Position numbers and translations under genes: made by a program
Shown here: positions 50,289 to 54,429 of the stretch, in pieces
How the letters are laid out: the number at the start of each line of letters is the position of its first letter
Numbering within the stretch: position 1 is the first letter of the stretch
Assembly: GCA_017447815.1 (NCBI GenBank)
Contig: JAFSMS010000018.1
Span: 1-54,429 of the forward strand
Direction of reading: 5' to 3'
DNA: 54,429 nucleotides
DNA from: Bacteroidales bacterium
GTDB lineage: Bacteria; Bacteroidota; Bacteroidia; Bacteroidales; UBA932
Notes under the pieces: model-generated
Database searches by the model: none
The model's input: the letters and a program-made list of their open reading frames with translations, nothing else
What the model was told of the DNA's origin: nothing

Positions 50289-50453
50289 GGGGCATGGTTG
50301 TGAGGGCTACTGGCTGATGGAGGCTTGCTGCTGGTACGGTGGCGGGGCATGGTTGTGAGGGCTACTGGCTGATGGAGGCTTGCTGCTGGTACGGTGGCGG
50401 GGCATGGTTGTGAGGGCTACTGGCTGATGGAGGCTTGCTGCTTGCACCGAGGG
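50289..50453. repeat. 55-bp tandem repeat, three units
   Basis: The unit beginning GGGGCATGGTTGTGAGGGCT occurs at 50289, 50344 and 50399, exactly 55 bp apart. The first two copies are nearly identical and the third diverges at its end, where it runs into palindromic copy B. A degenerate partial unit lies at 50238-50288. It is contiguous without spacers, so it is not a CRISPR array. Confidence 0.9.
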
Positions 50454-50560
50454 TGGCTGGTATCTCGCTGATACTCAGCGTGTTGCGTGTAATCCTCTGC
50501 GCAAAAAGCGCAGAGGATTGTGCGTAAGTGATTGGTTCACAATTGGTTGCCAGCCACCCT
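50450..50560. repeat. Nested palindromic repeat, copy B (111 bp)
   Basis: Perfect 11-bp outer inverted repeat AGGGTGGCTGG (50450-50460) / CCAGCCACCCT (50550-50560). The inner palindrome AATCCTCTGCGC (491-502 of 50xxx) / GCGCAGAGGATT (508-519) surrounds AAAAA. Same family as copies at 2211-2318 and 50658-50770. Confidence 0.88.
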
Positions 50561-50657
50561 TGTGGGCGCAAGGGCCGAAAGAAGGCATCGGCCGATGAAG
50601 CCCGTGGTTGCGTCTTGTAGGGGGCGTTTGTGGCCAAAAACGTTTGCTGCTGGTACC

Positions 50658-50770
50658 AAGGGTGGCAGGTATCTCGCTGATAATCAACGTGTTGCGTGTA
50701 ATCCTCTGCGCTTTTTGCGCAGAGGATTGTGCGTAAGTTATTGGTTCACAATGGGTTGCCAGCCACCCTT
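50658..50770. repeat. Nested palindromic repeat, copy C (113 bp)
   Basis: Outer arms AAGGGTGGCAGG (50658-50669) / CCAGCCACCCTT (50759-50770), one mismatch; the inner palindrome AATCCTCTGCGC / GCGCAGAGGATT surrounds TTTTT, the loop being inverted relative to copy B. About 90% alike to copy B by eye. Confidence 0.88.
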
Positions 50771-50799
50771 GCGGGCGCAAGGGCCGGAGGAGGGCACCG

Positions 50800-50905
50800 G
50801 CCGATGACGCCTCGACAAGCGAATGGGCCTTGCAGGGACCTGAGAGGCCGATTGTGCAACCGAGACGGCAACTAAAACTGCCCTTTGGCCTAAAACGTTG
50901 CCGCC
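50800..50905 (+). repeat. Direct repeat left of the rpn locus (DR1)
   Basis: A 106-bp segment beginning GCCGATGACGCCTCGACAAG and ending GTTGCCGCC, with a same-orientation copy at 52847-52953 on the other side of the rpn genes. The two are similar along their whole length with scattered differences. Confidence 0.8.
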
Positions 50906-51055: not shown

Positions 51056-52012
51056 ATGGCAAGATATGCAAACATTCTGAACGATGACGCCTGGAAGGTG
51101 GTCATCTTCACCCCGGGGAACGAAAAACTCATGTCCCGGATGCTGGAAGTGCTGCTGCCCGGCAGGCGCATCTCCCACCTGGAATTCCGCCCCACCGAGC
51201 AGCACGGTTTGGCGGTTTCCGATAAAATCAGTAATTTTGATGCGGTATGTACCTCAGACACCGGTGAGATGTTCATCGTGGAGATGCAGGGCCTGCAGCA
51301 GGACAGTTACGCCGACCGGATGCTGTGCTACGCCTCCTTCCCCATCCGGATGCAACTGGAGCAGAAACTCAGGGACGTCCACGAGGGGAAAGCCAAGCCG
51401 ATGGACTACGGTCTGCTGCCGATTTATGTGGTGAGTTTCGTGAACTTCGCCATCGGCCATGAGCATGCAGACGTGCTGGAAGAGGGTTTGGTGAGCCGCT
51501 ACTGTATCTGCTCCCCCAGAACGGGAGAAGTGATGACGGAGTCGCTGCAGTTCGTGTATCTGGAGCTGGGTCGTTTGGATGCGAAACTCGGCGAACAAGC
51601 CAAATGCAAAAGCACGCTGGAACAGCTGGCCTATAGTTTGAAGTACATGAAAGAACTCGCAGAGTGCCCGCGGGAGTTTACGGACGATTTGTTCCCGCTC
51701 CTTTTCAAGGCCAGCGAGTACGCAGAGATGGATGTAAGCAAACAAATGCAAGTCACACAGATCATGAGAACCGAACTGGACCGCATTGCGGAAAACAACT
51801 TCGCCCGGAAACAGGGCCTGGCCGAGGGCCTAGCCCGTGGCGAGGCCAAAGGAAGGGCCGAAGGGAGGGCCGAAGGAAGGGCCGAAGGGCTGGAACAGGC
51901 ACGGGCCGAGATGGTGCGCGAGATGTCTGCTGCCGGATTGTCTATGGAGCAGATGGTTCGTATTTCGCACCTGTCACAGGAGAAAGTACGGGCAATCTTA
52001 GACAAGAGCTGA
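51056..52012 (+). CDS. Rpn family recombination-promoting nuclease / putative transposase
   Basis: A 318-residue protein with a PD-(D/E)XK nuclease core of the Rpn/YhgA-like type: ILNDDAWKVVIF, D62 in SNFDAV, and E76-x-Q78 in FIVEMQGLQQDSYADRM. Family knowledge: Rpn proteins are DNA endonucleases that promote RecA-independent recombination and, in enterobacteria, act in phage defence. The middle is helical (LKYMKELAECPREFTDDLF). From M225 (MDVSKQMQV) follows the C-terminal part with GRAEGRAEG repeats and a final helix (MSAAGLSMEQMVRISHL). That part is duplicated twice downstream as free ORFs. All catalytic residues are present, so the protein should be active. Confidence 0.9.
   Translation: MARYANILNDDAWKVVIFTPGNEKLMSRMLEVLLPGRRISHLEFRPTEQHGLAVSDKISNFDAVCTSDTGEMFIVEMQGLQQDSYADRMLCYASFPIRMQLEQKLRDVHEGKAKPMDYGLLPIYVVSFVNFAIGHEHADVLEEGLVSRYCICSPRTGEVMTESLQFVYLELGRLDAKLGEQAKCKSTLEQLAYSLKYMKELAECPREFTDDLFPLLFKASEYAEMDVSKQMQVTQIMRTELDRIAENNFARKQGLAEGLARGEAKGRAEGRAEGRAEGLEQARAEMVREMSAAGLSMEQMVRISHLSQEKVRAILDKS
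51728..52012 (+). CDS. Candidate internal small protein (RpnS-like) within rpn
   Basis: An in-frame ATG at codon 225 of rpn would produce the last 94 residues alone. The detached copies downstream begin at exactly this ATG (MDVSKQMQV), which argues that it is a true start. In enterobacterial Rpn genes a C-terminal small protein (RpnS) is made from an internal start and inhibits the full-length nuclease. Whether this holds in Bacteroidales is inference. Confidence 0.45.
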   Translation: MDVSKQMQVTQIMRTELDRIAENNFARKQGLAEGLARGEAKGRAEGRAEGRAEGLEQARAEMVREMSAAGLSMEQMVRISHLSQEKVRAILDKS

Positions 52013-52053
52013 ATATGGGTATTTAGTGCCTGCGGGAGTATACGGATGCAGGG

Positions 52054-52302
52054 ATGGATGTAAGCAAACAAATGCAAGTCACACAGATCATGAGAACCGA
52101 ACTGGACCGCATTGCGGAAAACAACTTCGCCCGGAAACAGGGCCTGGCCGAGGGCCTGGCCCGTGGCGAGGCCAAAGGAAGGGCCGAAGGGAGGGCCGAG
52201 GAAAAGCGGCAGACTGCCAAGAGCCTTAAGGAGTTGGGGGTTGATTTGTCCATTATCCAGCAGGCCACAGGACTCAGTGCCGAAGACATTCAGGCGCTAT
52301 AA
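52054..52302 (+). CDS. Detached Rpn C-terminal cassette 1 with alternative tail (82 aa)
   Basis: An 82-residue ORF starting 41 nt after rpn. Its first about 150 bases differ from the corresponding part of rpn (from 51728) at about one position, so the copy is very recent or kept identical by conversion. After the GRAEGRAE repeat it switches to a different end, EKRQTAKSLKELGVDLSIIQQATGLSAEDIQAL in two parts, a tail known from other Rpn proteins. It begins with the same MDVSKQMQV start. Upstream, CLREYTDAG is fused to the start, lacking 14 residues of the rpn linker, and is cut off by a stop. It may be an inhibitor of Rpn or a donor for tail exchange. Confidence 0.7.
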   Translation: MDVSKQMQVTQIMRTELDRIAENNFARKQGLAEGLARGEAKGRAEGRAEEKRQTAKSLKELGVDLSIIQQATGLSAEDIQAL

Positions 52303-52352
52303 AGAATTGTCGCTTGTTGCATCTTTGCCCTCAGGAGTTCACGGATGCAGGG

Positions 52353-52577
52353 ATGGATGTAAGCAAACAAATGCAAGTCACACAGATCATGAGAACCGAA
52401 CTGGATCGCATTGCGGAAAACAACTTCGCCCGGAAACAGGGACTGGCCGAGGGGCTGGAACAGGCACGGGCCGAGATGGTGCACGAGATGTCTGCTGCCG
52501 GATTGTCTATGGAGCAGATGGTTCGTATTTCGCACCTGCCACAGGAGAAAGTACGGGCAATCCTGGACAAGGCTTGA
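52353..52577 (+). CDS. Detached Rpn C-terminal cassette 2 (74 aa)
   Basis: A 74-residue ORF with the same start MDVSKQMQV as cassette 1, but lacking most GRAE repeats (GLAEGLEQARAE) and ending in the same helix as full-length rpn (MSAAGLSMEQMVRISHLPQEKV) with few substitutions. An in-frame ATG at 52314 would add CPQEFTDAG and a few residues; the conserved ATG at 52353 is preferred because all copies share it. It lies 50 nt after cassette 1. Function as in cassette 1: a free C-terminal part of Rpn. Confidence 0.7.
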   Translation: MDVSKQMQVTQIMRTELDRIAENNFARKQGLAEGLEQARAEMVHEMSAAGLSMEQMVRISHLPQEKVRAILDKA

Positions 52578-52591
52578 ATATGGGTGTTTGA

Positions 52592-52637
52592 TGCCTGCGG
52601 GAGTATACGGATGCAGGGATGGACATAAGCAATTGAT
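52592..52637 (+). pseudogene. Stub of a third Rpn C-terminal cassette
   Basis: The bases TGCCTGCGGGAGTATACGGA followed by TGCAGGGATGGA repeat the lead-in of cassette 1 exactly (52030 onward), and ATAAGCAA matches the start region with changes, but the sequence stops at TTGATAG. So it is the 5' remnant of another cassette, truncated right before the terminator. Confidence 0.75.
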
Positions 52638-52670
52638 AGTTCTCGTTCGTTTTTTGGAACGAGAACTTTT
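52638..52670 (+). terminator. Rho-independent terminator after the rpn cassettes
   Basis: AGTTCTCGTTC (52638-52648) pairs perfectly with GAACGAGAACT (52657-52667) around an 8-nt T-rich loop, followed by TTT. The 11-bp stem and its position after the last cassette suggest that rpn and cassettes share one transcript ending here. Confidence 0.85.
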
Positions 52671-52846: not shown

Positions 52847-52953
52847 GCCGATGCCGCCTCGACAAGCGAATAGGCCTTGCAGGGCCGTAGGAGGCCGATT
52901 GGGAGAACGAGGCGGCAGCCAAAACTGCCTTTTGGGCCAAAAACCCTGCCGCC
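52847..52953 (+). repeat. Direct repeat right of the rpn locus (DR2)
   Basis: A 107-bp counterpart of DR1 in the same orientation, beginning GCCGATGCCGCCTCGACAAG and ending CTGCCGCC. It contains an inverted repeat GGCGGCAG / CTGCCGCC (52911-52953) and its first part recurs at 52949-52964. The surrounding 52671-53030 holds no gene; a degenerate piece AAAAAGGGGCATTTTCG at about 52751 resembles the palindromic unit in pbpC. Confidence 0.8.
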
Positions 52954-53030
52954 TCGACAAGCAGAAGGCCCCAGAAGGAGGCCGCTGAAAAAGTAGAGTG
53001 TTTCCTGTTTTCCGCAATGGGACACCCATT

Positions 53031-54429
53031 TCAGCAGTTTGCTGAGATGATGTCGAGGAGTTCGGCGACTTCGGGCTGCTCCTTGGTGTGGAGAAGTACC
53101 GACTTGCGCTTGTTGTCGTACGGATTGACATAGTCAATTTGGTATATCTTCTCCGCAAGGAAGCGTGCTCTATCCAGCGATATCTTGGATCCGGCGCTCT
53201 TGAGGATGCGTTCCAACTCCAGCATGATTGTATAGGCAATGAAGCAGATACAAACGTGGGCTTCGATTCTGTTGAAGAGTCGGTGAGACATCGGACGGAT
53301 GTCCAGATCGGTTTTGCAGAAGCGGAAGGCCCTCTCTATCATGAACAAGTATCCGTATTCCTCAATGACTCTGTCATCTGATAGCGTACTGTTGGTTGTG
53401 TACCCCTTGTAACCGTCCAGGCGTTCATCTTTTGCAACCTTGTCGTAGTCGATTTTGATGGAGGCGTCCCCTGACATCGTGAGGAAGCGGTTGTACCCAC
53501 GGTTGTTCAGCTTGTCCTTCGTGAGTTTGTCTGTCCTGAAGCGCTTTTCAAGCCGTTTGAGACCTCTTTCACGCTCAGCAGCGTTCTTCCTTGCACGAGC
53601 GTCGCTCATCGTTACAACCATACCCCTGGCCTTGGTAAGTTGTATGCTGGTACTCTGCCCGTTGGACAGTCCCAGTCCTGCTACCTTCTCCTTGAACTGC
53701 TCACTCTGAGAACGTATCCTTGCACCGAGGATGTACTCGTAACCACCTTCTTCCAAGTCGCGGATGTTCTCCTTGCTCAGCAGACCAGCATCGGCCACTA
53801 CGATGGGTTTGGGAAAGCCGAAGCGCTGCTGCAGTTTCTCAATGATGGGGATCATCATATGGCCCTCGTAGGTGTTGCCGAGATGGATCTCGTACCCTAT
53901 CGGATTACCACCTGGACCGACCAACAGACCCAGAACCACCTGCGGATTGGCATTCTTGCCATCCTTGGACCAGCCTGGGATACGGACGTCGTCCTCGCGG
54001 GACTCGAAGTACATCGTGGTCGTGTCATAGAAGACTACGGCTACAGTGCCACCAAGAACACGTTTGGTCTGTTCGTAGGTTACTTGTTCAACATCGTGCT
54101 TGACATCGTATGTTTTGGCTTTGCGCTTGGTCTCCGGCCTCCAACAGAGCTCGTCCAGATAGCGATAGATCTTGTCCTCATCGTAGTACTTGTTCATGAA
54201 GTAGGCCATGTAACGTAGCGTCTTCAACTTGCTTCCAGGGCGGTATAGCCGCGTTACTACTAGGCTCTTGAAGATATCGTTGTCAGACGTCCGGACAGTC
54301 CCGAACCCGATCTTGTCGAACAAGCGGCCGTAGATGAGGTCCGGCCCAACCAGCCTGAGCTGGTCCTGGCCGATGCCAGCCATCATGGCATCATAGTCTG
54401 CTGCTCCGTCAGGGGCAAACAGGTCTTCA
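53031..54429 (-). mobile_element. IS1634-like transposase, 5' end beyond the window
   Basis: A DDE transposase of the IS1634 type, at least 465 residues visible. Counting from the first internal ATG (54386), catalytic D121 lies in VVFYDTTTMYFES, D199 in IVVADAGLL, and the glutamate in the signature FMIERAFRFCKTDLDIRPM. The reading frame stays open upstream of that ATG to the window edge (EDLFAPDGAADYDAI), so the true start is outside; family members are about 500-600 residues. The C-terminus (LLDIISANC) is complete. Element ends and target duplication cannot be determined. It lies 78 nt from DR2. Confidence 0.88.

Follow-up and report, generated by a model that had tools for sequence, protein, structure and literature searches.

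Organization of the rpn locus

The window analysed here, a stretch of 54,429 nucleotides (nt) from a Bacteroidales bacterium (contig JAFSMS010000018.1, assembly GCA_017447815.1), contains near its right end a complete rpn gene for a PD-(D/E)XK-type nuclease, followed on the same strand by an array of detached copies, here called cassettes, of the C-terminal part of that gene. In Rpn toxin-antitoxin genes this part corresponds to RpnS, the intragenic antitoxin described by Zhong et al., 2023 (PMC10327210), and the full-length product is RpnL. Coordinates and repeat comparison confirm that rpn and its array are genuine, and they bear out the original prediction, made from the letters of the window alone, of a complete rpn followed by two free open reading frames (ORFs) and a stub with shared lead-in DNA. 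The locus comprises the following features.

51056..52012, + strand: rpn (RpnL), PD-(D/E)XK-type nuclease of 318 amino acids (aa), PF12784, with the intragenic RpnS inside
51764..52012, + strand: probable intragenic RpnS starting at M237 (column 221 of the hidden Markov model, HMM), proposed from Met conservation, translation presumed
52013..52053, + strand: lead-in 1, with degenerate rpn DNA, lacking 36 nt, at 52027-52053 (repeat comparison)
52054..52302, + strand: cassette 1 (free RpnS, tail unlike that of rpn), 82 aa; likely start ATG 52090 (70 aa)
52303..52352, + strand: lead-in 2, rpn-like portion at 52326-52352 (repeat comparison)
52353..52577, + strand: cassette 2 (free RpnS, rpn tail), 74 aa; likely start ATG 52389 (62 aa)
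52578..52636, + strand: lead-in 3 and five-codon stub (52619-52636) of a further cassette (repeat families)
52638..52667, + strand: 11-bp stem-loop ending the array (stem 52638-52648 with 52657-52667), weak as a terminator

Three repeat families tie these parts together: a 157-nt repeat with copies at 51722, 52048 (97%) and 52347 (80%); a 193-nt repeat, made of a tail and the lead-in that follows it, at 51875 and 52440 (92%); and the 41-nt lead-in plus start, found at 52027, 52326 and 52592 and, at 61%, inside rpn at 51701. As predicted, cassette 1 shares its head with rpn (97% over 157 nt) and then turns to a new tail, only 18% identical to that of rpn, while cassette 2 carries the rpn tail at 92% with five fewer four-residue repeats. 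The stub reads ATG GAC ATA AGC AAT TGA, and a TAG stop (52024) immediately precedes the rpn-like portion of lead-in 1. Since every lead-in consists of degenerate rpn coding DNA from which the identical 12 codons (36 nt) are missing, all cassettes probably derive from one detached copy. The 11-bp stem claimed as a terminator does fold (z -3.35 for a 91-nt stretch), but is followed by no more than three T and is absent from the terminator-scan list.

Assignment of the nuclease and of the free cassettes

The rpn product matched PF12784 (PDDEXK_2) with 98.6 bits, well above the cut-off of 27.4, and TIGR01784 (Rpn family) with 42.6 bits, under the cut-off of 52.1, and is named here by the Pfam family rather than by TIGR01784. 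Residues D62, E76, Q78 and R88 are invariant in an alignment of 55 proteins, and the first three are what we take to be the D..ExQ active site. A single-sequence search of rpn against PDB gave no match. The gene is probably a toxin directed at viruses.

For the cassettes, Pfam returned weak matches only, all below cut-off, and a cassette profile retrieved E. coli RpnA-S (7th0_A, E 1.8e-7, 39 profile positions) at row 19, the higher rows being mostly designed or natural repeat proteins with weak single repeats (i-E 6 to 11, and 0.02-0.04, for the full repeats in the two alignments printed). The AlphaFold model of cassette 1 had 7TH0 as its top structural match, over 46 of 46 residues, with the three-helix fold of RpnA-S, and the four-residue repeats begin at residue 19 of MRTELDRIAENNFARKQG-LAEG, within the 8-20 residues past the start Met that characterize RpnS. 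By sequence profile and predicted fold the free cassettes are RpnS, as their resemblance to the separately made C-terminal part had led the original prediction to suppose.

The proposed common start at M225 fared less well. M225 falls in HMM column 209, a Met in 35% of the 156 genes compared; M237 falls in column 221, a Met in 109 of them (70%), and 132 have Met at column 221 or 224. One free copy (at L079; L numbers denote loci and G numbers genomes) begins exactly at the column-221 Met. In 14 of 17 rpn-adjacent cassettes the frame opens 1-18 codons ahead of this RpnS Met, and in the other three (L026, L068, L126) 25-33 codons ahead of it. The likely RpnS start is thus the conserved internal M237, and in the cassettes ATG 52090 and ATG 52389, rather than the M225 codon.

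Tails are exchanged between rpn genes and cassettes

A second rpn on contig C3 of the same genome encodes a protein 97% identical to that of the window. The DNA homology (96% over 1142 nt) begins 89 nt ahead of the rpn start codon, spans the gene and the lead-in and ends 55 nt into cassette 1, past which point the C3 cassette has a tail that belongs to another rpn subfamily. The two sequences join at a 10-nt word, GAACTGGACC, found in both parents; the 68 nt that start with this word occur unchanged in a broken rpn from a different species (L160), and the C3 cassette is followed by a 35-nt relic of the tail-donor subfamily's own head (86%, E 3e-6).

Exchange is also seen in the genus. At one locus present in genomes G198 and G145 (L078 and L102), the nuclease part is 98-100% identical per 60-nt segment and the flank is 95-100% identical from about 170 nt beyond the stop, while the tail and those 170 nt have been replaced; this is a clean tail switch, with constant core and flank around a switched C-terminus as at Rhs loci. 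L191 and L197 (G372 and G349) have 492 nt of upstream flank in common (97%) and different rpn tails, and cassette 1 of L191 is related to the L197 rpn tail, though not as a close match (104 nt, 73%). In G210, the L093 cassette is identical over 78 aa to the RpnS of another rpn of the same genome (L068). When 20 cassette tails were compared with that of the rpn, or its 3′ part, at the same locus, ten were at most 50% identical or gave no match, three lay at 60-64% and seven at 75% or more.

Repeat number, counted as the longest run of G at spacing 4, differed in 15 of 17 rpn-cassette pairs (of 18 pairs counted), and the remaining two (L200, L079) differ in tail, so that no pair agrees in both. 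The upstream cassette of L093, which stands outside this list, has the same length as its neighbour and is 74% identical to it. Since a single extra repeat in E. coli RpnC is reported to abolish inhibition (PMC10327210), the cassettes probably do not act as mere reserve antitoxins against the adjacent toxin. They may instead serve other Rpn variants, or matching copies may be short-lived, possibly because identical repeats recombine away. The suggested antitoxin-like or donor role is supported in part, by RpnS-like open frames, tails exchanged between loci and an rpn tail switched at an orthologous locus, and the mismatch speaks against its simple form, as an antitoxin of the neighbouring rpn.

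Recurrence in the genus

The Rpn family was found by rpn search in at least 270 of 400 genomes of the genus, and the pattern of rpn with small downstream ORFs recurs in several species. Free C-terminal ORFs adjoin rpn at L013, L026, L068, L083, L126, L169, L191, L192, L193 and L200, and contig-cut rpn genes at L079, L198 and L199. A tandem pair of cassettes lies behind the full rpn of L191 and behind the contig-cut unit of L198; L204 and L081 show two C-terminal units with no rpn in view, one unit being cut by the contig end. The free C-terminal candidates numbered 41, or 32 after removal of overlapping regions and 35 with three added, some of which are C-terminal parts of broken rpn genes (e.g. 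L019, L085, L213, L215, L160) rather than cassettes beside an intact rpn. In a survey downstream of 144 rpn genes, of mixed ascertainment because L191, L192, L193, L200, L169 and L083 had been chosen for a C-terminal match or fragment already seen, 24 genes had any downstream match: 12 C-terminal-only copies, seven other small pieces, two short C-terminal pieces (L040, L106), two large duplications (L025, L108) and one neighbouring rpn (L088). Outside the genus, one clean case of rpn plus cassette (L258) was present in 20 regions, and the C-terminal piece touches a contig end in 9 of the remaining 19.

Two related arrangements were also observed. At L025 (1450-3612) two entire rpn genes, 88% identical in DNA, stand in tandem, and at L032 (1498-2397) an rpn has its C-terminal part repeated in frame, so that its protein contains two RpnS-like parts; behind it lies a third ORF of weak similarity.

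Putative displaced antitoxins and their possible function

Based on these comparisons, we consider it fairly probable that the locus is an Rpn toxin-antitoxin gene with detached antitoxin (RpnS) copies, tips displaced by recombination that probably act in trans. Tips would be swapped by recombination within the common head and within the 12-nt repeats, and, because the toxin tail and the antitoxin are the same DNA, each swap would alter both simultaneously; the displaced RpnS would remain behind the gene and may be amplified in tandem. Free RpnS proteins made from ATG 52090 and 52389 could then inhibit in trans an Rpn with their own repeat number and tail, be it a paralogue or a former or incoming variant, or could alternatively dimerise with the resident RpnS and so tune the resident. 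Should the cassettes act in trans, a single DNA module would combine three roles: specificity of the toxin, antitoxin in cis and portable immunity. A broader proposal, which we regard as rather doubtful, is that the rpn loci of the genus form an expressed bank of non-cognate antitoxins, each kept for protection against the Rpn with its own repeat number and tail; were this true, the array would record past toxin specificities, and the resident toxin could change its tip without self-poisoning. PMC10327210 leaves open by what route the tails and repeat numbers of Rpn diversify without toxin and antitoxin losing their match. The loci reported here could be used to test this, since they include a tail switch that arose naturally, hybrid cassettes and a trans match within a single genome.

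Several observations weigh against the proposal of trans-acting antitoxins. Identity to the RpnS of a same-genome rpn was found for just 1 of 19 cassettes, in a comparison covering six genomes and part of their rpn genes. In the least biased sample, the part of the score-sorted PF12784 list that comprises 100 full rpn genes with at least 700 nt downstream, a C-terminal-only copy lies downstream of two (L068, L126), so the arrangement is uncommon per gene, and the genus data are fragmented assemblies with many contig ends in or near rpn. Sigma-70 promoters around rpn show no excess (2 sites against 1.2 expected). The ratio of nonsynonymous to synonymous differences (pN/pS) between cassette and neighbouring rpn, 0.36 over 1388 codons in 17 pairs, includes rpn-side selection and selection on the tail before detachment. 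Damaged pieces also occur: L192 has an additional tailless head piece (HMM 184-221), L160 has a stop within the RpnS part, the tail of L085 is shortened, and at L040 no more than 35 nt of RpnS remain, followed by an unrelated ORF. Finally, ypaA, the E. coli K-12 counterpart of a single cassette, is annotated as a pseudogene, although its protein has been detected by tagging (PMC10327210).

An opposing view is that the cassettes are neutral debris, by-products of recombination-prone, repeat-rich rpn loci that are due to decay. Their rarity per gene, the broken pieces at L192, L160 and L085 and the mismatch in repeat number or tail in all 17 pairs agree with it, the last because quick deletion of identical copies would leave mismatched ones only. 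We nevertheless hold this explanation to be quite unlikely, since all 12 loci with C-terminal-only copies keep the cassette frame open, with an average pS of 0.445 to the neighbour (17 pairs), since such copies outnumber the other small downstream rpn pieces, and since several rpn genes with a broken nuclease part (L019, L035, L106, L108, L213, L215) retain an open RpnS part. These broken genes look as if the antitoxin outlives the toxin; L160, L085 and L110, the last with an N-terminal part standing alone, are counter-examples. The balance of intact frames and broken pieces favours function, as far as sequence comparison can tell.

Another view holds that the cassettes are mainly recombination donors, a bank of tips from which a crossover in the head (about 150 nt) deletes the intervening DNA and gives the nuclease a new tail. 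The near-identical heads with abrupt tail differences fit this well, the L078/L102 locus shows that tails do switch, the common flank of L191 and L197 with their unlike rpn tails and the relation of an L191 cassette to the L197 tail point the same way, and fusion of an orphan rhs tip to the main gene is a reported precedent (Koskiniemi et al., 2014, PMC3967940). As the principal role it appears unlikely to us: the window rpn and its C3 paralogue have the same tail, so that a switch is not seen at this locus, and open frames starting shortly before the RpnS Met, as in 14 of the 17 cassettes, would be needless in a mere donor. Very improbable is a mis-joining of repeats in the assembly, which comprises 118 contigs and is 86% complete; many of the cassette regions retrieved do end at a contig border, but the window copies, where aligned, are 2-8% different from rpn, 1.8 kb of contig continues beyond the array, similar arrangements exist in other genomes (L191, L200, L013, L026, L083), and the complete E. 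coli K-12 chromosome holds a one-copy version.

Relation to known systems

Free RpnS in single copy downstream of rpn has been described before, as ypaA and, in some strains, rpnCS, and so have arrays of whole rpn genes; the authors suggested that RpnL may help start the recombination that produces small downstream homologues (PMC10327210). The rpnE-ypaA pair resembles the window locus in the four-residue repeats of its RpnS, in a free copy that follows immediately and begins at the internal start, in a changed repeat number and in the 7TH0 fold. (That comparison begins right after the rpnE stop, and the true homology start may lie a few bases further up.) Unlike it, the loci described here include tandem arrays with at least two cassettes, tails from other subfamilies and exchange between paralogues and alleles, and lie in Bacteroidales. 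A query confined to rpnE/ypaA matched 5371 of 5426 E. coli genomes and found at most two places in any of them, nearby pieces possibly merging into one place. The full-length tandem duplications of rpn reported in PMC10327210 concern the same gene family and likewise a tandem duplication, whereas here the 3′ antitoxin part alone is repeated, L025 being a separate whole-gene case.

Arrays of displaced tips are known for rhs (Jackson et al., 2009, PMC2935791), and Rhs loci share with the present ones a constant core, an exchangeable C-terminal part and, probably, the retention of displaced parts downstream. Here, in contrast, it is the antitoxin itself that has become detached, with a start codon of its own, the nuclease is intracellular and there is no separate immunity gene. 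In openly licensed literature, among the matches listed, we found no description of tandem or re-tailed RpnS arrays. What appears new here is tandem cassettes with foreign tails and altered repeat number.

Other features around the array

Three other origins were considered and rejected. Integron-like or transposon cassettes do not fit, as the inverted repeats lie off the unit borders and the lead-ins are degenerate rpn DNA. A phage or plasmid origin was dismissed on searches that gave 0 relatives in viral_contigs, one phage record at 24% identity and 16 plasmid records below 60% identity. A 96-nt direct repeat (83%) at 50800-50895 and 52847-52942 brackets rpn and the array; a mobile unit bounded by it was rejected, since the genome has four copies of the repeat, of which two lie on other contigs (C117, C1). 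The only PADLOC result for the window rpn and cassette 1 was 'C3a178 putative invertase', located on the C-terminal part.

At L040 (1021-1210, G019), an ORF placed at the stop/start overlap of rpn begins with an exact RpnS head (35 nt identical) and continues into unrelated sequence, which had no Pfam match and which, we presume, recalls the N-terminal part of HigA-type antitoxins. The word CATTGCGGAAAACA occurs in the heads of rpn, cassette 1 and cassette 2 (51784, 52110, 52406), and an inverted copy (14 nt, 100%) lies at 53006-53022, just past the 3′ end of a DDE_Tnp_1 transposase gene (53031-54386, - strand), which lies a short distance past the array, next to the contig end. Upstream of rpn, a 168-nt direct repeat (89%) with an inverted repeat inside occupies 50435-50602 and 50644-50811.
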